Shown here piece after piece: positions 2,141 to 54,361 of a DNA stretch of 64,000 nucleotides. The notes beneath the pieces were generated by a model. That model saw nothing but the letters and a program-made list of their open reading frames with translations, was not told where the DNA came from and ran no database searches. Each line of letters begins with the position of its first letter. Position 1 is the first letter of the stretch. The translations under genes were made by a program, and so were the position numbers. The DNA lies in assembly GCA_022822745.1 (NCBI GenBank), contig JAJEAO010000035.1, forward strand, positions 38,335 to 102,334, read 5' to 3'. The DNA comes from Acidobacteriota bacterium (GTDB taxonomy: Bacteria > Acidobacteriota > Vicinamibacteria > Marinacidobacterales > Marinacidobacteraceae).

Positions 2141-2980
2141 CTACTCCTTGTTCAGGACGCAGTAGCGATACAGCTTGAGCGACTCGCGCCAGTCTTCCGG
2201 GTAGGCCGCCACCGTTTCGGCCTGCCCGTAGGTCGCGGCGAGCCCGGCGAACGATCCCGATTCGGCGACCCGGAAGGGCGTCTGCTCCTCGAAGACGGCC
2301 AGGTCGGCGAAGCCGCAGGGGAACGACGTGCCCATGGCGCGCTCGACCCCCTCCAGCCTTCGCTGGTCCTCGCTGGTCTCGAACTCCCGCTTCTCGAGAT
2401 CCACCGCGAAGTAGTCGAAGGCGATCCGGCACGATGTCATCGCGCCCGCCAGCCGGTTGAGGAACGGCATGATGCTCTCGGGGGGCAGGTACATCGTGTT
2501 GCCCTCCCACACGATCAGCGTCGGCGCGGACAGGTCGAACCCGAGTCGGGCGAGGCCGGCGGGCACATCGGCCTCCAGGTAGTTCGCCGGCAACGAGGGC
2601 GGCGGCTCGAGCCCGCGCTGCTTCAGCACCGCCCGCTTGAAGTCGAGGACGGCCTTCTGATCGACCTCGCAGAAGGCGACATCGGGATGACCGGATCGGT
2701 GGGCCCGCATGTCGAAGCCGCCGCCGAGCAGCACGACCTGCCGCGCCCCGTCCGCGATTCCGCGTTCGAGGAAGCCGTCGAACCAGCGGGTGCGGAACCG
2801 GACCATCGTGGTCGAAGGGGGAAAGGCGACATCGAGTTGACGCGCCGCTTCCCGGGCCCTGTCATTGGAGAACCATCTGGCGAAGGGATCGCTGAACAGC
2901 GGCTCCGGCTTCTCGGACTCCAGTTCGCGGATGGACGCGATCACGAAGGCCGTCGCGCCGATTTCATTGATGTCGGTCAT
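2141..2980 (-). CDS. SAM-dependent methyltransferase (LCMT / TIGR00027-like)
   Basis: MTDINEIGATAFVIASIRELESEKPEPLFSDPFARWF...RQVVLLGGGFDMRAHR; purine-rich SD before ATG at 2980. Confidence 0.8.
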   Translation of the reverse strand: MTDINEIGATAFVIASIRELESEKPEPLFSDPFARWFSNDRAREAARQLDVAFPPSTTMVRFRTRWFDGFLERGIADGARQVVLLGGGFDMRAHRSGHPDVAFCEVDQKAVLDFKRAVLKQRGLEPPPSLPANYLEADVPAGLARLGFDLSAPTLIVWEGNTMYLPPESIMPFLNRLAGAMTSCRIAFDYFAVDLEKREFETSEDQRRLEGVERAMGTSFPCGFADLAVFEEQTPFRVAESGSFAGLAATYGQAETVAAYPEDWRESLKLYRYCVLNKE

Positions 2981-3102
2981 CGTTCTCCTCCCGGAATCCA
3001 CGACTCCCGTCCCGGGGCTTCGAGGGATCGGGGCCGAGGGTACCGCCGCCATCGCTCGCCGCGGCGCGCTAAGGTGCCCCGTTTTCCCGCAGGAGGTCCG
3101 TC

Positions 3103-4203
3103 ATGGCGCAATTCGAGGTTCCCGTTCTCGCGATCGACCGGATCGAGGACCATCCCAACGCCGACGCCCTCGAGATCGCGGTCGTCCGCGGCTATCGCTG
3201 CGTGGTGAGGATCGGCGCCCACCGCGCCGGCGACCGGGTCGCCTACATCCCCGAGGACGCGCTCGTCCCGGCCGAGCTGCTGCGCGAGATGCGGCTCTGG
3301 GACGAGGCGAAGGGACGCGGGATGCTCGCCGGGAAGAAGGGCGACCGGGTGAAGGCGATCCGGCTCCGCGGCATCGTCAGTCAGGGTCTCCTGTACCCGG
3401 TGTCCGGGCGCGAGGAGGGCGAGAACCTCGCCGACGAGCTCCACATCCTGAAGTACGAGCCGCCCATCCCGATCCACATGCAGGGCGAGGTGGCGAACGT
3501 TCGCGGACACACGCTCTCCTACGATGTGGAGAGCCTGCAGAAGCACCCGGACCTCCTGATCGAGGGCGAGGATGTCGTCTTCACCGAAAAGATCCACGGC
3601 ACCTTCACCTGTTTCGGCTTCGATCCCGGGCTGAACCACCCGGATCTCCTCGAGGGCGGGACGATCATCACCTCGAAGGGTCAGGCGGACACCGGGCTGG
3701 CGTTCCAGTGGGGCGAGGCGAACGCCAGCAACCTCTACGTCCTCTCCTTCCGGGCCGCCTTCCACGAGACCGGCGCCTGGGACGACGTCCGGGCCGAGTG
3801 CCAGCGCACCGGGGAGCCCATCTTCATCCTCGGCGAGACCTTCGGGAAGAAGGTCCAGGATCTCCACTACGGCCAGCCGGGGCGCGCCTTCCGCGTCTTC
3901 GACATCTATGTCGGCAAGCCGCGGCGTGGCAGGTTCCTCGACCACGACGAGATGACTGCGCGGGCGAAGGCCTGGGGCCTCCAGACCGTGCCTCGACTCT
4001 ACCGGGGGCCCTGGTCGCTGAAGGCTGCGGAAGCCCACCGGGACGGACGCACCACCTTCCGGGACCGGCACGTCCGCGAGGGCATCGTGATCGTCCCGGT
4101 CCGCGAGCGCGAGTGTCCGGAGCTGCCGGGCAACCGGCTGAAGCTGAAGTTCGTCTCCCCGAAGTACCTCCTCCGCCGCGGGAAGGTGACGGACTTCAAC
4201 TGA
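3103..4203 (+). CDS. RNA ligase, Rnl5/DRB0094-like
   Basis: MAQFEVPVLAIDRIEDHPNADALEIAVVRGYRCVV...EDVVFTEKIHGTFTCFGF (nucleotidyltransferase motif I KxHG)...LKLKFVSPKYLL. Confidence 0.8.
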   Translation: MAQFEVPVLAIDRIEDHPNADALEIAVVRGYRCVVRIGAHRAGDRVAYIPEDALVPAELLREMRLWDEAKGRGMLAGKKGDRVKAIRLRGIVSQGLLYPVSGREEGENLADELHILKYEPPIPIHMQGEVANVRGHTLSYDVESLQKHPDLLIEGEDVVFTEKIHGTFTCFGFDPGLNHPDLLEGGTIITSKGQADTGLAFQWGEANASNLYVLSFRAAFHETGAWDDVRAECQRTGEPIFILGETFGKKVQDLHYGQPGRAFRVFDIYVGKPRRGRFLDHDEMTARAKAWGLQTVPRLYRGPWSLKAAEAHRDGRTTFRDRHVREGIVIVPVRERECPELPGNRLKLKFVSPKYLLRRGKVTDFN

Positions 4204-4318
4204 TGACCCACCGCCGTGACCCGGGGCGTCCTCGCCCCGGTTTCCGGTCCACCCATGGAGGGGTCCATGGACAGCTTGCAGCGGGATCGCGGCCCCGAGT
4301 GGCTGCTACTCTGACAGC

Positions 4319-5470
4319 GTGACGCCCGCTCGACTCCGCAATCCATACCAGCCGGGTCGAGGCGTGGTCCCGCCCGTCGTTGCCGGGCGCGCCGAGGAGA
4401 TGGGCCTTGTCGAGGGCCTGCTCGCAGGGCTCGTCCGAGGAGAAACGTGCTCCGAGGATCTTCTCTTCCATGGTCCCCGAGGGAACGGCAAGACGACGCT
4501 CCTGCTCGAGACTGCGCGCCGCGCGCGTGAGCTCGGGCTCCGTGCCGAGACGTTTCCGGTGGACGCGCTCACGGACACGGAGCGGTTGGTCCGTGCGCTT
4601 CAGGAGCGTGCGGGGGTTCTCGGAGGCGGTGTCACCGGACTCCAGCTCGCCGGGACGGGAGCGACGGCGGAGCGCGCCTCACCGTCCCGGGATGTCACTT
4701 CGCTGTTCCAGATGTGGTTGGCGAGCGAAGCGTCCCCGGTCGTAGTGCTCCTCGACGAGATCCATTCCCTCGAGCCCGATGCCGCCCGACCGTTCTTCGA
4801 GGCGGTCCAGAGCGCAAAGTCCGGCCCCACGCCTTTCCTGCTCGTGCTGGCCGGAACCCCGGACGCTCCCCGTCGTCTGCGGCGCGCGGGTACGTTCAAC
4901 GAGCGCGGCTTCGAGCCGATTCGCGTGGGGAGGCTCCGCCGCTCGGAGACGAACCGCGCGCTCGTGGAGCCTGCGCAGGACGGTGGGCGGCCGATGAGCG
5001 AGGCAGCGACCCGTCTGCTCGCCGCGGAATCCCAGGACTACCCCTACTTCATCCAGCTCCTCGGAAGCGCGGCATGGGATGCCGCGACAGGCATGCGGCG
5101 CATCGAGCAGGAGGCCGCGCGCCGGGGCATCGCAGCCGTCCGGCTCCGGGTCGAAGACTTTTACGGCCATCGCTTCCGCGAGGCCTGGCATGCGGAGATC
5201 GCGCGGGCACTTCCACCCCTTGCGCGATGCTTCGTCGAGCGGGGCGGCGCGACGTCGGATTTCGTGTTCCTCGACCTGATCGAACGACTCGCCGCCGGCG
5301 ACCGGGTCGCTCTCGATCACGTGGCGCTGCTCACTCGGCTCGAGGATCTGGGCGTCGTGTGGCAGGCCGCTCCCGGAGTATGGGAGATGGGGATCCCCAG
5401 CTTCGCCGACTACATCCTCCGCCGCGAGGCCGGACAGGCGGGTCCGGCGCGAACGATCGAGCGGAACTGA
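4319..5470 (+). CDS. AAA/STAND-like ATPase, paralog B
   Basis: RNPYQPGRGVVPPVVAGRAEEM...FHGPRGNGKTTLLLE...VVLLDEIHSLE...WQAAPGVWEMGIPSFADYIL; near full-length similarity to paralog A. Confidence 0.85.
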   Translation: MTPARLRNPYQPGRGVVPPVVAGRAEEMGLVEGLLAGLVRGETCSEDLLFHGPRGNGKTTLLLETARRARELGLRAETFPVDALTDTERLVRALQERAGVLGGGVTGLQLAGTGATAERASPSRDVTSLFQMWLASEASPVVVLLDEIHSLEPDAARPFFEAVQSAKSGPTPFLLVLAGTPDAPRRLRRAGTFNERGFEPIRVGRLRRSETNRALVEPAQDGGRPMSEAATRLLAAESQDYPYFIQLLGSAAWDAATGMRRIEQEAARRGIAAVRLRVEDFYGHRFREAWHAEIARALPPLARCFVERGGATSDFVFLDLIERLAAGDRVALDHVALLTRLEDLGVVWQAAPGVWEMGIPSFADYILRREAGQAGPARTIERN

Positions 5471-42973: not shown

Positions 42974-43181
42974 CGGCATCGTCGCATCAAGCGCCGGACC
43001 GTTGCCCCGCCGGTGCCCCGGGCCGGTACCCGTCCGCCGCGTCGGATGCTTCGGCGATGGATCCGACCCGAGGCGGTCGGCGGAATCAGCGGTACGATGC
43101 TCCCGTCCGGGCTGCGTGGGGACGGCGGCCGTTGCGAAACGCGCGCGGACCGAACGGGGAGCCGGGTCTCCCGCGCCGAGA

Positions 43182-44318
43182 ATGCATTACACGAGACCGC
43201 GCTTCAGTCGCAGCCAGGTGGATCGGGCCGGGAAAGTGCTGAAATCGAATTCCGCGAGCGCGGCGGAGCGACGCCGCGCGCGCCAGGTCATCGGCGTCTG
43301 GCGGAGTTCCCACACTCTGCCTCTGTACAGCGTTCAGCAGACGGTGCGACAGGAGGCCCGTCGAGTGGATCGCCTGGCCAATGTGGCCTATCGCCTCAAA
43401 CGACTGCGCTCGATTGAGGACAAGCTGAGGCGGCTCCGTGGCATGGCGCTGTCTCGCATGCAGGATGTCGGAGGCTGCCGCGTCGTGCTGAGCCGGTACG
43501 ACGCGATCGACGCGGTGGGCGAGCTGGCGCGGGCACTCGGGAGCGACGGGGGTGGTCAGGAGGTTCGCCGGGTGGCCGACTACATCCAGAACCCGAAGCC
43601 CGACGGCTATCGCGGCGTGCATCTGGTCTTCCGCTTCCAGGCGGCCGAGCCCTCCCATGCTCCCTGGAACGGGTACCAGATCGAGCTACAGATTCGCACC
43701 CGACACCAGCACGCCTGGGCCACCGCCGTCGAGACCATTGACGCGCTGGTCCACACCCGCTTGAAGGTCGGAGGCCCGAACAATGGGAACTGGAGCCGGT
43801 TTTTCGCGCTGATGGCCAGCCTGATGGCGCTCGTGGAAGATCGGCCCACCGTTCCGGGTACGCCCCAGTCGGCGCCTGCCATTTGGACCGAGGCCGAACA
43901 TCTGGCTGTCGAGCTGGATGTCGACAACTGGCTTGCGGGCCTGATGACGGCGGTGGGCGCTATTCGTTTCCCGGCGGACTCCGGGTATCTGCTGCTGATT
44001 CTCGACGGCAGCGAGCGGGCCATATCCGTTCAGGCCTTCTCCCGGGAGGACACCGGCGAAGCACAGGACGCCTATCTGAGTAGCGAAGGCAAGTTCGAAT
44101 CCAGACCCGATGTCCAGGTGTGCCTGGTCGCGGCCGATTCGATCGCCGCGCTGCGCAGCTCGTATCCGAACTACTTCCTGGACGCGCAGCAGTTCCTCGA
44201 ATTCCTCGCCGTATTTCGCGGCAGCGGCTCCTATGCCCAACGCGAACCCCCCGACGCGGCCGCGCTGGTAAATCAGCTGCGGGGAGTCTTCGGCGGGAGT
44301 GGGGTTTCGTCGGGGTGA
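43182..44318 (+). CDS. Stand-alone RelA/SpoT nucleotidyltransferase-domain protein
   Basis: MHYTRPRFSRSQVDRAGKVLKS...MALSRMQDVGGCRVVLSRYDAI...VADYIQNPKPDGYRGVHLVFRF...YQIELQIRTRHQHAWATAVETID; no HD or TGS domain. Confidence 0.88.
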   Translation: MHYTRPRFSRSQVDRAGKVLKSNSASAAERRRARQVIGVWRSSHTLPLYSVQQTVRQEARRVDRLANVAYRLKRLRSIEDKLRRLRGMALSRMQDVGGCRVVLSRYDAIDAVGELARALGSDGGGQEVRRVADYIQNPKPDGYRGVHLVFRFQAAEPSHAPWNGYQIELQIRTRHQHAWATAVETIDALVHTRLKVGGPNNGNWSRFFALMASLMALVEDRPTVPGTPQSAPAIWTEAEHLAVELDVDNWLAGLMTAVGAIRFPADSGYLLLILDGSERAISVQAFSREDTGEAQDAYLSSEGKFESRPDVQVCLVAADSIAALRSSYPNYFLDAQQFLEFLAVFRGSGSYAQREPPDAAALVNQLRGVFGGSGVSSG

Positions 44319-44470: not shown

Positions 44471-46039
44471 ATGAATCGGAACCGTCGCCGCTTTCTCCAG
44501 GCATCCGCCGGCGCCGGGCTGGCGCTGCCGTTCGTTCGCTCCGTCCCCGCGCTCGGGCAGCCGAGCGTCTTCGCCCACGGCGTCGCCAGCGGCGATCCGC
44601 GGCGCTCGCAGGTGCTGCTCTGGACCCGCGTCTCCGGCGCCTCCGGCGAGGCCGTGCCGGTGCGCTGGCAGGTCGCCCGGGATCCCGATTTCCGCGAGAT
44701 CGTGGTCGAAGGCGAGGCGATGACCGGGCCGGAGCGGGATCACACGGTGAAGGCGCTCGCCACCGGCCTGCAGCCGGGGATGACCTACCGCTACCGGTTC
44801 GAAGCGCTCGGCGAGCGCTCGCCGGTCGGCCGCACGAAGACTCTCCCGCGGGATCCGAAGCAGGTGAAGCTCGCGTTCGTGTCCTGCTCCAACCTGCCCT
44901 TCGGGTACTTCAACGTGTACCGGCGGATCGCGGAGCGGAACGATCTCGACGCCGTGCTCCACCTCGGGGACTACCTCTACGAGTACCCGAACAGCGCCTA
45001 CGGCGACGGGACCCGGTTCACGCCTTCCCGGGCGTCCCGTCCCGACAAGGAGATCACGACGCTCTCCGACTACCGGATCCGGCACGCCCAGTACAAGTCG
45101 GACCCCGACCTCCAGGAGGTCCATCGGCTGCATCCGTTCATCGCGGTCTGGGACGACCACGAGATCACGAACAACGCGTGGACCGATGGCGCCCAGAACC
45201 ACCAGGTCGAGGAAGAAGAGGGAGACTGGTTCGTGCGGCGGGAGATGGCCGTCCGGGCCTACTTCGAGTGGATGCCGATCCGCGAGCCGGAGCCGTGGCC
45301 CAGCCAGCGGACCTGGCGGAGCTTCCGCTTCGGGCGGCTGGCCGACCTGATCATGCTGGACACCCGGCTGGTGGGGCGCTCCCGTCAAGCCGAGTGGGGA
45401 GACGTGGCCGGGATGCGCCACCCGGGCCGAACTCTTCTAGGGGCGCGGCAGGAGGCCTGGCTCCACGACGAGCTGCGGGCGTCGAAATCGGTGCGCTGGC
45501 GGGTGCTGGGACAGCAGGTGATGATGGCGCCGCAGCTCGGACCGGACGGGAATCCGGAGAACCCGGACCAGTGGGACGGCTACGAAGTCAGCCGGAATCG
45601 GCTCTTCGATTTCCTCGAGCGCGAGCGGCTCGGGAACCTCGTCGTGCTGACCGGGGACGTCCACCAGTCGTGGGGGATGGACCTGCCGCGGAACCCGGGC
45701 TCGGGGTACGACCCCGCGACGGGAGCAGGTTCCTACGGCGTGGACTTCGTCACGACCGCGGTGTCTTCACCCAGCTCCCTGTTGCGGCGTCTCGGGACCG
45801 AGTCGGCGATCGCCGCCGAAGTCGAGGGCATGCTGGGGCCGAACCCCCACGTGAGGTTCGCCGAGGCGTTCCACCGCGGCTACTGCGTGCTGGACATCCG
45901 GCCCGACCGAGTTCGCAACGACTGGTACTTCGTGCCGACGGTGGAGGAACGGACCGACGCCCAGCAGTGGGCCGCGGGGATCCTGGTGGCGTCCGGGACT
46001 CAGCACGGCGTCCGCGCCGACGCCGCGCCGGAAGCCTGA
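44471..46039 (+). CDS. phoD: Alkaline phosphatase D family protein (Tat signal)
   Basis: MNRNRRRFLQASAGAGLALPFV; VFAHGVASGDPRRSQVLLWTRVSG; LGDYLYEY; WDDHEITNNAW. Confidence 0.92.
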   Translation: MNRNRRRFLQASAGAGLALPFVRSVPALGQPSVFAHGVASGDPRRSQVLLWTRVSGASGEAVPVRWQVARDPDFREIVVEGEAMTGPERDHTVKALATGLQPGMTYRYRFEALGERSPVGRTKTLPRDPKQVKLAFVSCSNLPFGYFNVYRRIAERNDLDAVLHLGDYLYEYPNSAYGDGTRFTPSRASRPDKEITTLSDYRIRHAQYKSDPDLQEVHRLHPFIAVWDDHEITNNAWTDGAQNHQVEEEEGDWFVRREMAVRAYFEWMPIREPEPWPSQRTWRSFRFGRLADLIMLDTRLVGRSRQAEWGDVAGMRHPGRTLLGARQEAWLHDELRASKSVRWRVLGQQVMMAPQLGPDGNPENPDQWDGYEVSRNRLFDFLERERLGNLVVLTGDVHQSWGMDLPRNPGSGYDPATGAGSYGVDFVTTAVSSPSSLLRRLGTESAIAAEVEGMLGPNPHVRFAEAFHRGYCVLDIRPDRVRNDWYFVPTVEERTDAQQWAAGILVASGTQHGVRADAAPEA

Positions 46040-46120
46040 GCCAGCGCCGGCGCACCGGTCGCGGATTGCCGGCGCGCCGGACTCCGGCCCGGCAGGCACT
46101 ACGCCGGCGCCGGAGTACTG

Positions 46121-46160
46121 CCTGCCGGGCCGGTTCTCGCGGTAGCGGCCCCGCCCGGCA
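46121..46160. repeat. Copy of the palindromic intergenic repeat
   Basis: CCTGCCGGGCCGGTTCTCGCGGTAGCGGCCCCGCCCGGCA. Confidence 0.85.
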
Positions 46161-46297
46161 CGTCAATGCAGGCCCTCAGTCTTCCGGTTTGCGGACCGTC
46201 GGGTACTCGATCCCGAGCTGCTCGGTGCAGGTGTCGCAGCGTTCGGTCGCGTCGCGGCGGCGGGCGCCTCGCGGGTGAGGCCGGGCGACGGGCTCGA

Positions 46298-47467
46298 TCA
46301 GCCGAGGGCCGATGTGAACCGGGAGGCCAGATCGTCCGACGTGGCCCGGTTCCAGGTCTCGTTCACGCCGAGCAGGAAACTCCCGTCGGACCGCGGCGCG
46401 CCGAGATCCACCTCGACTTCGCGCAGCCGCGCCCGAAGCCGCTCCGGGTCCGCCCCCGTCGTTCGGAGCCGGAACAGGTTCGTGCCCCGCGGAATTCGTT
46501 CGACCTCGAAGCCAGGCGCGCCCGTGACGCGCTCGATGAAGCCTTCCGAGACGGCGACGGCGCTCGCGAACCGCTCGGTGAAGCCGGGCAGATGGTGCAG
46601 CGCGACCGCGGCGAACGGCCACGCGGAGGGGAGGCCGCCCCCGAACATCCGCCGGGTGTGGTACATCCCGTCGAGGAGCGATCGCGGCCCGGCCAGGATC
46701 GCCCCCGACGCGGCGTTGAAGTACTTGTAGAGCGAGACATACACCGTGTCGAACGGCCGGGCGAGTTCGGCCACATCCACTCCGGTGCGGGCGCTCTCGA
46801 GGAACACCCGGGCCCCGTCGAGGTGGAGCCGGATGCCCTCGCTGCGGGCGAAGTCGGTGATCCGGGCGCGCTCCGCCGGGTCGAAGATCTCCCCGGACCG
46901 CCGGCGAACCGGAGACTCGATCTGGATCACCGAAACCGGCCGGATGACCCTCCCGCCGGCGGTCCGCTCGACGACTCGCACCACCTGCTCGAGGGTGAAG
47001 GTGGCCGCCCCGGGAGCGAGCGGGATGAGCGGAATCTGGCTCAGAGTCTGGACGCAGTCGCCGGAGTCGTTGTAGAGATGGGCCTCGGCCTGGACGATGG
47101 CGCGGCCCCCGGCCGGTCCGGCGAGAGCGCGGACAGCGAGCTGGTTGGCCAGCGTGCCGGTCGGCAGGAAGACCGCCCGTTCCTTGCCCAGGAGCTCCGC
47201 GAAGCGCTCCTCGAGTTCGCCGACGACTCCGCCGTTGGAGTAGTTGTCGCGGGCGATCCGTCCCTCGTCGGCGAGCCGGGCGATGAGCCTGCCCTGCTCG
47301 GCGGGGGTGAGTCCGAGGCCGTCCCCTGTCATCCGGATCCGGGTGGAATCCGTCGAAGGGAAAGCCAGCGGCACCGCGGCGGCCGCCGGATGTCCGCCCG
47401 CGAGGAGTCCGGCCCCGAGGCCGACCGATCCCGTCCGAAGAAACTGCCGCCTGCGAATCCCGCTCAT
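46298..47467 (-). CDS. Threonine aldolase / beta-eliminating lyase family PLP enzyme with Tat-like signal
   Basis: MSGIRRRQFLRTGSVGLGAGLLAGG; FLPTGTLANQLAVRALAG; LHLDGARVFLESARTGVDV; VYVSLYKYFNAASGAILAG. Confidence 0.85.
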   Translation of the reverse strand: MSGIRRRQFLRTGSVGLGAGLLAGGHPAAAAVPLAFPSTDSTRIRMTGDGLGLTPAEQGRLIARLADEGRIARDNYSNGGVVGELEERFAELLGKERAVFLPTGTLANQLAVRALAGPAGGRAIVQAEAHLYNDSGDCVQTLSQIPLIPLAPGAATFTLEQVVRVVERTAGGRVIRPVSVIQIESPVRRRSGEIFDPAERARITDFARSEGIRLHLDGARVFLESARTGVDVAELARPFDTVYVSLYKYFNAASGAILAGPRSLLDGMYHTRRMFGGGLPSAWPFAAVALHHLPGFTERFASAVAVSEGFIERVTGAPGFEVERIPRGTNLFRLRTTGADPERLRARLREVEVDLGAPRSDGSFLLGVNETWNRATSDDLASRFTSALG

Positions 47468-47632
47468 CCCGCGTCCTCCGAAGCAGACTCTACCGACCGG
47501 GCGGCGCCTTCGGTCCGCAGGCGTCGGAGCGGAGTGGTCGAGGGTTCACGAGAATCCCCGCGAAACCGTCGCACGACGGACGGCGGCAGGTTCGATATCG
47601 TGCAGTTCACGAAGTGAAGGGGTTCCACCAGC

Positions 47633-48898
47633 ATGACCTTGACACTTCCTGAGCTCGGCCGCCGGCTGCGGGAGGCCCGCCAGGCTGTGCGCCTTCGACG
47701 GGAGGATGTGGCGGAGCGACTCGACATCTCGCGAAGGGCCGTGGCGCACATCGAGGCCGGACGTCGCCCGGTGTCCGGCTTGGAACTGGAAGGGCTGGCG
47801 CAGCTCTACGGCCGCGACATGCGGGACTTCTTCTCCGAGTCGTTCTCGGCTCGTGATGCGGTCGCTGTCCTGTTTCGCCAGCATCCGGAGTTCGCCGGTG
47901 GCCAGTCGGCAGCGCAGGCGCTGCGGACTGCGCTGACCCTCGGGCGGGCTGTCACCGGGCTCGAACGCCTCCTCGGGTCGGATCGCGACCTGGCGTCCAT
48001 CGTCCGCCACGCGAAGCCGCGTCCCCGGGGGAAGCGCGAGGCCGCCCGGCAGGGCGAGGCGGTGGCTGATCGGGAGCGACGGCGGCTGGGACTTGGAGAC
48101 CAGCCCCTTCCCGACCTCGTGGAACTCCTCGAACTGCAGGGGGTGCTGGCAGTCGAATGCCAGCTTCCGGCGGGCGTCTCCGGGCTGACGCTGATGGACC
48201 CCGGAACAGGGGCGCTCGTCGTTGTCCAGGCCGGGGAGTCCCGCAGTGAGAGACGCTTTTCCGTCGCCCACGAGTACGGCCATGTCCTGCTGGACCGGGA
48301 GCAGCAGGCAGTGGTGAGTCGTGCCGAGGAGCGCGATGCCCTGCCCGAAGTGCGCGCCAGCGCTTTCGCCGCCAGCTTCCTGATGCCGCGGGAGGGCGTT
48401 CTCCGATTTGTCCGCACGGTGGCTGCCGGGATGGACAGCCCTGAGCGGGTCGGGCTGCGCCGGGAACTCGGACCGCCTGTCCCCCGGGTCGAGAGCCGCG
48501 CCGCGTCGGGCTGCCGCCCCCTGGAGATCTGCGACGCGGCGCTGCTGGCGCACCACTTCGGGGTCAGCCAGGTCACCGCCATCCGCCGACTTCGGAACCT
48601 CCGGGTGATCCGGCGGCGCGAGATGGACCGCCTGCTTCGGCAGGAGCGACGTGGCGCCAGCGGGGCAGTGGCCCGGCTGCGTCGTCTCGTCGCGCCGGAC
48701 TCGGAGCGGCCGGGGCGGGGCTTCCGGCGACGTTTCCTGTCGCTCGGGATCGAAGCGCTTCGGCGGGAGCAGATCAGTCACGCCAGGTTGACCGAGCTTG
48801 CCGGCCTCGTCGGTATGGACGCGAGGGCGCTGGGGACGGTCCTCAGCGCCGCCGGCCTGGAGCGGCCCCCGGTGGACGTGCTGGGCGCCCATCTCTGA
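47633..48898 (+). CDS. XRE-HTH + ImmA/IrrE metalloprotease protein
   Basis: LRREDVAERLDISRRAVAHIEAGRRPVSGLELEGLAQLYG...FSVAHEYGHVLLDRE...ASAFAASFLMPREGV. Confidence 0.88.
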   Translation: MTLTLPELGRRLREARQAVRLRREDVAERLDISRRAVAHIEAGRRPVSGLELEGLAQLYGRDMRDFFSESFSARDAVAVLFRQHPEFAGGQSAAQALRTALTLGRAVTGLERLLGSDRDLASIVRHAKPRPRGKREAARQGEAVADRERRRLGLGDQPLPDLVELLELQGVLAVECQLPAGVSGLTLMDPGTGALVVVQAGESRSERRFSVAHEYGHVLLDREQQAVVSRAEERDALPEVRASAFAASFLMPREGVLRFVRTVAAGMDSPERVGLRRELGPPVPRVESRAASGCRPLEICDAALLAHHFGVSQVTAIRRLRNLRVIRRREMDRLLRQERRGASGAVARLRRLVAPDSERPGRGFRRRFLSLGIEALRREQISHARLTELAGLVGMDARALGTVLSAAGLERPPVDVLGAHL

Positions 48899-49019
48899 CG
48901 CCCGATGGGCCTCGCGGGCCGCTGCTACACTCCGCCTGCTACAACCCAGCCGTCGAGGGACCATGCCCGGAACCTTGGAGCTCTCACTTGCGCGGGCCCG
49001 AGGCCTCAGAACCGTACGA

Positions 49020-50392
49020 TGTACCGACTAGACGAACTCACGATCGACGATGTCCGGTGTTTCGCCGGCTCACAGAAGGGCCGTGTACGTCCCATCACGC
49101 TGCTCGTCGGAGAGAACAGCACGGGAAAGACCACGTTCTTGGCCTGCTTCGACATCTTCCACCGGGTGGTCCACCAGTTGCGCCGCGGGAGGGACGAAAG
49201 GCTCGCTCCCGACTTCAACCACGAACCGTTCTCTCTGGGCTCGTTCCGGGACATCGTCAGATCCCGTCGTGGTCGGCATGGACGCATCACCGCATTCCGC
49301 CTTGATGCTCACCTCATGAACGGAGGCAAGGGTTTTCCTGACTACAGCGTCCGGGCCGAGTTCGTCGAGGACGGCTCGCAGCCGGTCCTGGCCGCCTGGC
49401 GCTACGACTTTCGCGAGCAGGGGTTCCTGGCGTTCCGATGGGACGAGCCGGACTCGCCGCCGATCGTGGCAATCCAGGATCACGAGACGCGGCTGAATGA
49501 GCCATGGGGACTGAGCGACGCCCTGTTCCTGCTGTCGCTCCCGCAGCGAGAGCGCCGCAGTTTCCGGAGCCTGTTTCCAAGCGCCGCGTTCCAACCGATC
49601 CACGACTTCCTTGGCTCCTTGGTGAAGAACTCACTCGACGGGAGGATCCGTCCGGAGCAGTCTCTGTTGCCGCTCCTGCCACCGTCCGTTCCTCTGGCCC
49701 CTCTGAGAGCGAAGCCTGCGCGCACTTACGACCCGGTGCGGGAAGTGGCGACGCCGGAAGGGATGCACGTGCCCATGCTCATGATGCGCTTGGCGCGTGC
49801 GGACAGTGAGCGGTGGCGGCGACTGCAGAAGCACCTGGTCGCCTTTGGCAAGGACTCTGGACTCTTCACTGACATCACCGTCAAGAGCCATGGGCAGCAG
49901 TTGAGCGATCCGTTCCAGTTGCGCGTGAAGGCGAACTCGGGAACCCATGCCAATATCGTGGATGTCGGCTACGGCGTGAGCCAGAGCCTGCCCATCCTGG
50001 TGGATGTCTTGACCGCCCAGGAGGAGCAGGCGCAACGGCGCGCCGGTGGTCCAATTCAGTTCCTTCTGCAGCAGCCGGAAGTGCACCTGCATCCTCGGGG
50101 GCAGGCTGAACTTGCGAGCTTCTTGGTTGCCGCCGCCCGCCGCTACGGTCATCGGTTTCTCGTGGAGACCCACAGCGACTATATCGTGGACCGGGTTCGC
50201 ACCTCGGTGCGGGAAGGCCGCATAGCAGCCGACGATGTATCCATCCTGTACTTCGAGCCGAGAAAGAAACTGAAGGCCGTCCGGTTGTACAGCCTGCGGC
50301 TCGACGAGTTCGGCAATGTCCAGAACGCGCCGCCGGGATACCGGGCTTTCTTCTTTCGCGAGATGGACCGGACGCTCGGATTCACGGAGTGA
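49020..50392 (+). CDS. AAA family ATPase (AAA_21/COG4938-like)
   Basis: LTIDDVRCFAGSQKGRVRPITLLVGENSTGKTTFLACFDIF...VSQSLPILVDVL...FLLQQPEVHLHPRGQAELASFLV...HRFLVETHSDYIVDRVR. Confidence 0.9.
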
Positions 50393-50402
50393 CTTTCCGC
50401 CG

Positions 50403-50840
50403 ATGTGCATGATCGTGGATGCCGATCGCATCGGTTCGTTCCTCGAGGATCGGGAAGACTCCGACGCCGCGCCCATCCACCGATGGTTGAGTCGTGGTCG
50501 GGGGAAGCTTGTGTACTCGACCGGAGGGAAGTTCGCCACCGAGGTTCTCCGGCGACAGCGGCAGCGCCTCCTCGAGTACGACCGGGCCGGCCGGGCGCGG
50601 CGCATTCCGGCGCATTCCTTCGTCGCGGATGAGCGGAGGCTGCGCCGGCAGGGAGGGCTCCGGTCGAACGACGCCCACGTGATCGCCCTTGCCCGCGCCA
50701 GCGGCGCGCGGCTTCTCTACACCGGGGACAGACGCCTGATGCAGGACTTCAGGGATCCGCGCTTCGTCCAGAAGCCACGGGGCCGAATCTACTCCGGACA
50801 GAAGAACGCCGGACTCCTGGAGACCACGATCTGCCGCTGA
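50403..50840 (+). CDS. PIN-like nuclease partner of the ATPase
   Basis: MCMIVDADRIGSFL...LVYSTGGKFATEVLRR...RSNDAHVIALARASGARLLYTGDRRLMQDFRDPRF; starts 10 nt after the ATPase stop. Confidence 0.75.
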   Translation: MCMIVDADRIGSFLEDREDSDAAPIHRWLSRGRGKLVYSTGGKFATEVLRRQRQRLLEYDRAGRARRIPAHSFVADERRLRRQGGLRSNDAHVIALARASGARLLYTGDRRLMQDFRDPRFVQKPRGRIYSGQKNAGLLETTICR

Positions 50841-50861
50841 GGGAGAGGACAGGGAGGCTCG

Positions 50862-53108
50862 TCAGAAGGTTCGGAGCCAGGTGAGCTTCACGACGCCGGT
50901 GCGACGCGTCCAGCGCTCGATGCGGGGGTCGAGGTCGCCGTCGGTCAGATACCCGGTGTCGAGCACGACGAACAGATCGCTGCCCGGCGTGTGGATCCAG
51001 TCCACCCGGATGTTCGCCTGGAGCTCCTTCGAGTCGTCGTCCCACTGGATGAGAGCGCTCGCGAACAGCTTCCGGCTGACGGCGCCATCGAGGTTCAGAC
51101 CGAACAGCGTGGCCGTGAAGTCCCCGTCCGCGGCTGGCAGCGAGATGTTCCGGCGGCTCATCTGCGCGCCCACGGTGAGGTGCGGCCCGGTGATGAGGGT
51201 GAACCCGGCGCCCACGCCGGTCTGCTCGCCGCCCCAGAACTCCCCTCCGGAGACGGAGACCCGGCCGGAGAACTTCCGGCTGTCGTTGGAGAGCGCGCCC
51301 GCTTCCCACGACCGGAACTCGTAGTCCCCGGGGGAGAGTGCGCGGCCGCTGATCGAGGCCGGCTCGTGCAGCCGTTCGAAACGGTCTCTCCCCACGATGT
51401 ACATCCAGTCGCCGGATTCGAGCCGGAACGAGGTGTTCGCGCTGAGTTCGCGGCTCTGGAGTTCGCCTCCGGTCCCCCGGGTCGTCCCTCCGCTGCCCCG
51501 CACCGACAGCCGGCGCGCCCACCGGCTGGACTCGAAGCGCGGCTGGAAGACGGCCGACCCGTACCAGCGGTCCATGTCCCGTCGCCGGGCGAAGCCGAGC
51601 GCGGGCTCGAAGTCCTTCCCCACGACGGTCCGGTTCAGCAACACCCCGTAGCGGTCGTTCTCGAGGTTCAGCCGTGCCGCGCCCGCTCCGGCGTTCCACC
51701 CGGAGCCGCCGCCCTCCGCGCCGTCGGCTTCGGATTCCCAAAGGCGCGCGCCCCACATCCGGAAGGAAGAGCTGCTCCAGAAGCGGGTCACGACATCGGC
51801 CCCGGCGGCGCGACTGGAACGCCCGTCGGCTCGGTCCAGACTCGTCCCGATGACGCCCGCGGTGGCCCGCTCGCTGAGGTTCATCTGGACGCGGCCCACG
51901 GAGTTCCACGCCGACGGCAGACCCTCTTCGCCCTTCTCGGTCCGGAGGGCGAGCGCCCCAACCGAGATCCGCCCCACCTGACCGGTGAGTCGTCCTCCGC
52001 CCTGGATGTCGGTCTCGAGTCCGACCCGCCGACTGAAGAAGACCGCGGTGTTCCCGGGATCGCCGAACTGGAACAGCCCGGCGCGTTCAAGGAAGAACTC
52101 GCGCTTCTCCGGATAGAACAGGTTGAAGCGCGTCAGATTGATCTGGACGTTGTCGCTCTCCACCTGGGCGAAGTCCGTGTTCCAGGTCAGGTCGAGGGTC
52201 AGGTTCGGGGTGATCCCGTACTTCAGGTCCGCGCCGCCCGTCGTCTGTCCGGTGAAGCTTCCGTCGCCCGCGAACCGCTGAGTGCCGACGAGCCCGTAGG
52301 GACGGACCTCGACCCGCCGGCCGCGGCGGATCCCGGTCAGCCCGACGAGGTCGGCGTACTGCGAGACCTGCGCGATCCCGGACCGGTAGTCCTGACCGAT
52401 GTGGGGCCAGGTGACGGTCTCGTTCTTCCGCCGGATGGACCGCGAGAACGCGATCCCCATGACCGGAGACTCCACATCGGCGAAGCGGATCGTCGTGAAC
52501 GGGATCCGCATTTCGAGCACCCACCCGTCCGGCGTGACCCGGGTCTCGGTCGTGAAGACGCCGTCCCAGTTCCAGTCCTCGCGGTCGAGACGCTCGTCGG
52601 CGAGCAGGGCGTCGTCCTGGGTGCCGGGCGCGCCCACCTCGAAGATGTAGGCGTTGCGCCGGTCGCGGTAGGTGTCGAGGCCGATGATGACCCGGTCGTC
52701 CTTGTCTATGCGGCCGCCGCGGTGGAGGATGCTGCGGCGGATCCGGTCCGGCTCCGAATCGAAGAAGAGGAACCCGAAGTAGAGCGCCTGCTCGTCGAAC
52801 GCGATCCGCACCTCGGTGCGCTCGCTGGCCGGAGCGCCGTCCACCGGATCGCGCTGGCGGAACCCGGTGACCGGCGGGATGCGGTCCCAGAACGGTTCGT
52901 CGAGAACTCCGTCCACCCGCGGCGGCGTCTCGATCCGCACCGCCTCGATGACCGGGCGATCGTTCCCGACCGGCTGCGCCTCCGCCCCCGCCGCCACCCC
53001 GCCGCCACCGAGAGCCGCCGTCAACAGAAGGAACGGAGCGACGCCGCGGGAGCGCTGGACGCCGCCGGTTCGCCCCGCAGGAGTCCGGCAAGTGAGGCGA
53101 GATGGCAC
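50862..53108 (-). CDS. DUF5916-domain (CBM9-like + outer-membrane barrel) protein
   Basis: VIEAVRIETPPRVDGVLDEPFWDRIPPVTGFRQRDPVDGAPASERTEVRIAFDEQALYFGFLFFDSEPDRI...GIAFSRSIRRKNE. Confidence 0.88.
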   Translation of the reverse strand: MPSRLTCRTPAGRTGGVQRSRGVAPFLLLTAALGGGGVAAGAEAQPVGNDRPVIEAVRIETPPRVDGVLDEPFWDRIPPVTGFRQRDPVDGAPASERTEVRIAFDEQALYFGFLFFDSEPDRIRRSILHRGGRIDKDDRVIIGLDTYRDRRNAYIFEVGAPGTQDDALLADERLDREDWNWDGVFTTETRVTPDGWVLEMRIPFTTIRFADVESPVMGIAFSRSIRRKNETVTWPHIGQDYRSGIAQVSQYADLVGLTGIRRGRRVEVRPYGLVGTQRFAGDGSFTGQTTGGADLKYGITPNLTLDLTWNTDFAQVESDNVQINLTRFNLFYPEKREFFLERAGLFQFGDPGNTAVFFSRRVGLETDIQGGGRLTGQVGRISVGALALRTEKGEEGLPSAWNSVGRVQMNLSERATAGVIGTSLDRADGRSSRAAGADVVTRFWSSSSFRMWGARLWESEADGAEGGGSGWNAGAGAARLNLENDRYGVLLNRTVVGKDFEPALGFARRRDMDRWYGSAVFQPRFESSRWARRLSVRGSGGTTRGTGGELQSRELSANTSFRLESGDWMYIVGRDRFERLHEPASISGRALSPGDYEFRSWEAGALSNDSRKFSGRVSVSGGEFWGGEQTGVGAGFTLITGPHLTVGAQMSRRNISLPAADGDFTATLFGLNLDGAVSRKLFASALIQWDDDSKELQANIRVDWIHTPGSDLFVVLDTGYLTDGDLDPRIERWTRRTGVVKLTWLRTF

Positions 53109-53168: not shown

Positions 53169-54347
53169 TCAGTGCCGTCCTATCGCTCCGAAGTCCAGTT
53201 CCACCGCGACATTCCCCGCATCCTCCGTGAGTCTGACGAAACCGAGGCCGAACAGGCGTTTCAGCTCGCGTCGGAAGGTGCGGGTCGTGACGTTTCGATA
53301 GACAGTCTGAACGTAGGGGTCGGACAGAAGCTCGGGGATCGCGACTCGGCGGGATGGCGCTTCCGAGAACGGATCGGCCGGCTCGGTCGTCCGCACCAGG
53401 AACTCCAGCAGGTCGAGCTCCCGCTGATTGAGGGTCCGTCGCCGCGGGCTGATTCGCGTCAGGTGGGCGCGGGCCATGGCGTCCCGGTACAGAACCCGGT
53501 TCATTCTGGCCTTGATGAAGTTGTTGATGCCCTTGAGCTCGGCCCGGAAGCCCCGGATGCCGAAGGCCACGAACTCCGTGAGATCGAAGGGCTGAGCCCT
53601 CCGGCTGTGCTGGAGAAGGCTGCGGTACTCGTCGCCGTTCCGGTAGAAGTAGTTCGAGAGCCCGTAGAACCCGTGGACGGTGTAGCCGCCGCGGAACAGG
53701 ATGCCGGCTTCCACGAGCCGGGAGACGCGGCCGTTTCCGTCCCCGAAGGGGTGGATGGTGACGAGGAAGAAGTGCGCGAGGAGCGCCCGCACGACCGGAT
53801 GCTGCGCCTTGCATCGGCGCGAGCCGACGCACTCCACGAACTTCTCCATGAGCCGGGGGAGCTCGGCGTGGGGCGCGCCCCGATGGACGCCGCCGAGTGC
53901 GGGGGTTCCGACGACGACCGGGTAGCTCCTCAGGCTCCCCGGCACGTTGTTCTGTTCGTCGGACCCCTCGGTGAGGAGCCGGTGCATCTCGAAAATGTCC
54001 CGAACGCCGAGCGGGGGGGCGCCCGGTCGGAAGCGTTTGCGGACCCATTTCTGCGCCCGACCCGCGTTTCGGACCTGCCGCTCCTCCCGCGACTCGTCGT
54101 GGCCGCGGCCCGGCGCCGCTGCCGGTTCGCGAAGACGCTCCCGGACGGCCGCCTCCGACAGCGGGTTCCCCTCCAGCGCGGTCGTGCCGTGGATGGCGCG
54201 GATCCGGTTCAGCTCATCGAGCTCGCGGCTCCAGCGTGGAGGGAGAAACTGGTTGCGTACCGTCAGGCGGTAGGCCTCGATCTGGATGAGGTCTCCCTCG
54301 AATGGTTTCCCGAGCTTCCAGTCGAAGCGGAATCGTGCCCAATCCAT
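53169..54347 (-). CDS. Fic family AMP transferase
   Basis: TTALEGNPLSE (inhibitory-helix-like motif) and HPFGDGNGR core motif. Confidence 0.93.
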   Translation of the reverse strand: MDWARFRFDWKLGKPFEGDLIQIEAYRLTVRNQFLPPRWSRELDELNRIRAIHGTTALEGNPLSEAAVRERLREPAAAPGRGHDESREERQVRNAGRAQKWVRKRFRPGAPPLGVRDIFEMHRLLTEGSDEQNNVPGSLRSYPVVVGTPALGGVHRGAPHAELPRLMEKFVECVGSRRCKAQHPVVRALLAHFFLVTIHPFGDGNGRVSRLVEAGILFRGGYTVHGFYGLSNYFYRNGDEYRSLLQHSRRAQPFDLTEFVAFGIRGFRAELKGINNFIKARMNRVLYRDAMARAHLTRISPRRRTLNQRELDLLEFLVRTTEPADPFSEAPSRRVAIPELLSDPYVQTVYRNVTTRTFRRELKRLFGLGFVRLTEDAGNVAVELDFGAIGRH

Positions 54348-54361
54348 CAAGTTCCCTGGAC

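Follow-up and report, generated by a model that had tools for sequence, protein, structure and literature searches.

PARIS (AriA-AriB) couples an OLD-type ABC ATPase sensor to a separate small nuclease: the ATPase hexamer keeps hold of AriB, a nuclease that cleaves tRNA, until phage triggers bring about its release (PMC12409363). Septu and the retron PtuA-PtuB systems are likewise ATPase-nuclease pairs, with an effector of the HNH type. OLD-ABC ATPases paired with PIN endoRNases were reported in a survey of BREX loci (PMC12839542), and the PADLOC candidate system HEC-03 (HEC-03A and HEC-03B) combines a DUF3696-type ATPase gene with a downstream gene for a small PIN-like protein. PIN proteins are also found with regulators that carry an ImmA protease domain. 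This XRE-COG2856/PIN arrangement was described by Makarova et al. (PMC2701414), and an ImmA-PIN link is present in NetFlax (PMC10440598).

The locus studied here lies in a 64,000-nt stretch of DNA (the window) and consists of an XRE-ImmA gene followed by an ATPase gene and a gene for a small protein (Table 1). All three ORFs of the original prediction were found at the positions given there, and all are intact. Pfam matches and the presence of homologues of the ATPase-PIN pair in other phyla argue that these are real genes and not chance ORFs. The predicted spacing of 10 nt between ATPase and PIN was confirmed; that between XRE-ImmA and ATPase had been given as 121 nt and is 1 nt shorter. The ATPase frame is already open from an ATG at 48905; homologues, however, align from 49019. 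The promoter scan, uninformative at 70% GC, found no sigma-70-like promoter in 47300-51000.

We propose, with a probability of about 60%, that ATPase and PIN (49019-50840) together make up the functional unit, which would be mobile and act against phages by abortive infection or in a toxin-antitoxin-like manner, and that the XRE-ImmA gene is a mere neighbour.

Table 1. Features of the locus in window coordinates
Feature	Position	Strand	Evidence
XRE-ImmA protein (HTH_31/HTH_3 and Peptidase_M78), probable RmrA-like antitoxin/regulator, 421 aa	47633..48898	+	Pfam, PADLOC RmrA
Gap between XRE-ImmA and ATPase genes, 120 nt	48899..49018	+	sequence
OLD/ABC-type ATPase (AAA_21 and AAA_15, weak DUF3696), 457 aa; putative sensor that keeps PIN in check	49019..50392	+	Pfam, PADLOC, AlphaFold, tree
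PIN-domain nuclease, 145 aa; putative effector RNase	50403..50840	+	Pfam, AlphaFold, conserved D6/E47/D109

The ATPase was predicted to be RecF/OLD-like, and its motifs and fold bear this out: it is of the OLD/ABC type, as in PARIS and Septu. The motifs GENSTGKT (residue 31, Walker A), GYGVSQ (317), QQPEVHLHP (351, Walker B region) and ETHSDYIVDR (383) are present. The AlphaFold model (pLDDT 83) matches the heads of Rad50, SMC, Septu PtuA and retron PtuA, and in a profile comparison the protein matches the OLD protein 6p74 with an E-value of 4e-14. The 10 proteins of the first ATPase alignment all give the same picture. In PADLOC, the profiles of NsnB (135 bits), PDC-M55A and HEC-03B (90.6 bits) rank ahead of AriA (60 bits).

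Menshen, PARIS and HEC-03, three of the systems behind these profiles, do not account for the locus. Menshen (NsnA-NsnB-NsnC) provides the top match; by Pfam the neighbours of the window ATPase are XRE-ImmA, PIN and DUF5916, with neither a DUF262 gene nor a third gene carrying an OLD-type nuclease beside it. In PARIS the effector is the TOPRIM protein AriB, and here it is a PIN protein; membership in PARIS was rejected, as was membership in HEC-03, since the window PIN protein gives no match to HEC-03A, whereas the partner proteins at two other loci (L079 and L081) do. Septu and retron PtuA-PtuB differ in their HNH effector, and the pair comes with no reverse transcriptase. For PDC-M55B, whose profile covers 315 positions against 145 aa in the window PIN, the search of the own genome gave no match, and control genomes equally gave none. 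The BREX-associated OLD-ABC/PIN pairs show the same gene pairing; the window pair stands alone.

A tree of 43 ATPases separates these types further. The PIN-linked ATPases form one group with support of 100/99, and ATPases located beside HEC-03A-like, DUF7384-like, DUF262 or OLD-type genes fall outside it; the group labels are taken from neighbour genes, of which only a part was compared with profile libraries. The Menshen-like ATPases that lie beside DUF262 genes and the HEC-03-type ATPases both branch elsewhere than the window ATPase. Some of the HEC-03-type ATPases have an RNA ligase gene downstream: the order DUF3696-type ATPase, HEC-03A PIN-like protein, RNA ligase was seen at L081:880-3493 (Pfam RNA_ligase) and in an Aeromonas plasmid at L049:5344-7972 (ligase by annotation), and possibly at L086 and L089.

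The small protein was predicted to be PIN-like from its acidic positions, and the absence of a PIN fold in a structure prediction had been named as the finding that would speak against it. The fold was found. The Pfam PIN domain scores 26.3 bits (cut-off 23.6) and is matched by seven of 10 relatives at E-values up to 0.1. For the AlphaFold model built from a 10-sequence alignment (pLDDT 86, pTM 0.81), the five top-ranking PDB entries are all VapC toxins, with probabilities of 0.99-1.0, moderate TM scores (0.44-0.50) and a best E-value of 3e-3. The VDAD, SNDAH and YTGD motifs are all present. Across 19 homologues D6, W28 and D109 are invariant, C2 and G34 nearly so, and E47 is kept in 18; at the third acidic site most have [ND]D, and two have DG or DY. 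Thus, the product of 50403-50840 is a PIN nuclease that is most likely active, and we infer RNase activity from its family membership.

PADLOC gives no match for the window PIN protein at E-values up to 1, so scans with this library would miss the pair as such. OLD-ABC/PIN pairs having already been reported (PMC12839542), the kind of system is known; new here is a PIN family that has no PADLOC model.

Conservation of the pair supports a two-gene module. The lack of conserved linkage had been the other finding that would have counted against the original prediction; instead, the two genes are neighbours at 19 loci, counting that of the window, spread over three or more phyla and two viral contigs, with gaps from -4 to +12 nt. 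In every strong case the PIN gene is directly preceded by the ATPase gene. Genome scans found PIN proteins with 60% identity in Entotheonella and 35% identity in a Planctomycetota MAG, in both, an ATPase gene of this type directly precedes the PIN gene, and no XRE-ImmA gene accompanies the pair. A Gemmatimonadetes MAG contig (L003) has the same PIN gene sequence as the window and does not count as an independent case. Distances between ATPases correlate with those between PIN proteins (r = 0.904; none of 5000 permutations was as high), to which shared ancestry contributes. By these comparisons of gene order and sequence, ATPase and PIN constitute a genuine two-gene module, in agreement with the predicted coupling of an ATPase to a small nuclease.

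The distribution of the module is patchy. The PIN gene was found in six of 149 genomes of relatives and, with some weak matches, in 12 of 396 genomes of the phylum. The own genome holds a second, frameshifted pair (L045, G000:C77, about 2800-4700) and an ATPase fragment (L104, G000:C30, 6266-6730). At two other loci (L102:6330-7724 and L103:5637-6902) the ATPase is intact and of the PIN protein about 20 and 12 residues remain, respectively, a sign that loss of PIN may leave the ATPase in place; this would be expected if PIN were the harmful part. A different rearrangement occurs at L013:928-1902 (G085:C175), where tandem PIN duplicates lie downstream of one ATPase and the second copy has an altered N-terminus.

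Carriage by prophages came to light in scans of IMG/VR with ATPase profiles, which detected two contigs. In L101 an SPP1-type portal gene stands on one side of the pair and the genes for the large and small terminase subunits on the other, and the pair runs in the opposite orientation. In L100 it is located beyond a lysis-type gene (glycosyl-hydrolase-108) and a Rha gene. Judged by these neighbours, both positions look like prophage cargo sites; as a sign of an antiphage role such a position is only suggestive. The pairs make up a coherent family that prophages carry. Scans of the viral set with the PIN profile and with the window ATPase sequence alone gave no match, nor did plasmid searches with PIN.

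How the module might work is suggested by analogy to PARIS and Septu. The ABC-type ATPase would oligomerise and keep the PIN nuclease inactive; on sensing an infection cue it would release or activate PIN. The freed nuclease would then cleave RNA, most likely tRNA or rRNA, and thereby stop growth of the cell. Sensing, restraint, cleavage and defence are all predicted here from the related systems. The pair is a compact case on which to ask whether an OLD-type ATPase sensor can act through an RNase effector besides the TOPRIM and HNH types.

The same two proteins could instead form a type II toxin-antitoxin system or a plasmid or prophage addiction module, with the ATPase as antitoxin to PIN and little or no antiphage role. 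In NetFlax, AAA ATPase hub proteins count as antitoxins, and some pairs have demonstrated neutralisation (PMC10440598); the patchy distribution and the decayed copies in the own genome are in line with this as well. The kin of this ATPase class, however, are proven defence sensors (PARIS, Septu). We regard addiction as unlikely, but as the best placed of the alternatives; it differs from the anti-phage proposal in degree and not in parts.

The original prediction included the XRE-ImmA gene in a three-gene set gated by proteolytic de-repression. In such a system, supposed for this lineage, XRE-ImmA would repress the pair until its protease, cued by damage or phage, lifted the repression. The gene is on the same strand at a short distance, its HTH domain and HEYGH motif (residue 213) are intact, and its usual PIN partner is missing. 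Base composition provides mixed evidence: GC3 is lower in all three genes (0.78-0.82) than in the aldolase-like, DUF5916 and PhoD-like genes that flank them (0.88-0.91), but total GC is 0.718 for XRE-ImmA vs 0.630 for the ATPase (0.674 for PIN). Linkage argues against the three-gene set, of which the window is the one known instance. No XRE-ImmA gene was found near 17 other chromosomal pair loci (L004, L005, L030-L043 and L045; some stretches stop at contig ends) by tblastn at an E-value of 1e-3 and a search for HExxH. Two genomes have the ATPase as well as an XRE-ImmA homologue, at unlinked sites; the PIN gene is intact in one (G453) and truncated in the other (G315).

XRE-ImmA homologues keep other company. 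The protein matches PADLOC RmrA with 81 bits and shares its XRE and ImmA protease make-up with RosmerTA and the XRE-COG2856-PIN toxin-antitoxins. Its ten closest homologues (L053-L062, 35-47% identity) fit the published XRE-COG2856/PIN arrangement: in eight a different PIN protein follows directly, and in the remaining two a match to only the first 15 residues of that protein follows. This PIN family matches PADLOC PDC-S70; the eight loci (L053-L057 and L060-L062) present a compact family of XRE-ImmA and PDC-S70-like PIN toxin-antitoxins in the same phylum. At one of them (L056) a patatin-like phospholipase gene comes after the XRE-ImmA and PIN genes. In the window the cognate PIN toxin is missing, and the ATPase-PIN pair that follows is of another family. 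No usual partner PIN or remnant of it was found in 46000-51000 by tblastn with four such PIN proteins, and a search of the own genome, run without a positive control, gave no match.

The claim of proteolytic control over a three-gene set was thus not supported, and we consider such a system distinctly unlikely. By its homologues, the XRE-ImmA protein is probably an RmrA-like antitoxin or regulator of a separate XRE-ImmA/PIN toxin-antitoxin family and merely abuts the pair; given its strand and its upstream position, it may have a role at this locus. In one version of the three-gene set the regulator would have lost its own PIN toxin and taken over control of the ATPase-PIN pair. This partner swap, which is less credible still, would if true join two antitoxin hubs (an ImmA protease and an OLD-ABC ATPase) in one circuit. 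With the ATPase-PIN pair as the preferred unit, the XRE-ImmA gene serves as a caution that same-strand neighbours need not form one system.

The surroundings of the locus were compared with two genomes of the same family (G003 and G005), in which the PhoD-like, cyclophilin and DUF5916 flanking genes are close together and the aldolase-like gene is on another contig. The window XRE, ATPase, PIN and Fic proteins have no match between these three flanking genes in either genome. Of nine other members of the family, a single one yields a match to the XRE protein (32%). Flanks free of the module genes and the near-absence of XRE in the family make this part of the window look insertion-prone.

Least likely of all is a housekeeping pair for RNA processing or DNA repair outside conflict: most of the copies found are chromosomal and PIN has no plasmid match, but the patchy occurrence, several copies per genome, decay, prophage-like cargo positions and absence of the pair from the corresponding region of close relatives speak against it.

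Two further genes lie a few kb from the module, encoding a RelA/SpoT-domain protein (43002-44318, plus strand) and a Fic/DOC protein (53169-54350, minus strand). In G003 and G005 the vicinity of the PhoD-like, cyclophilin and DUF5916 genes holds no match to either protein, and both may be additional genes for stress or conflict at this insertion-prone site.
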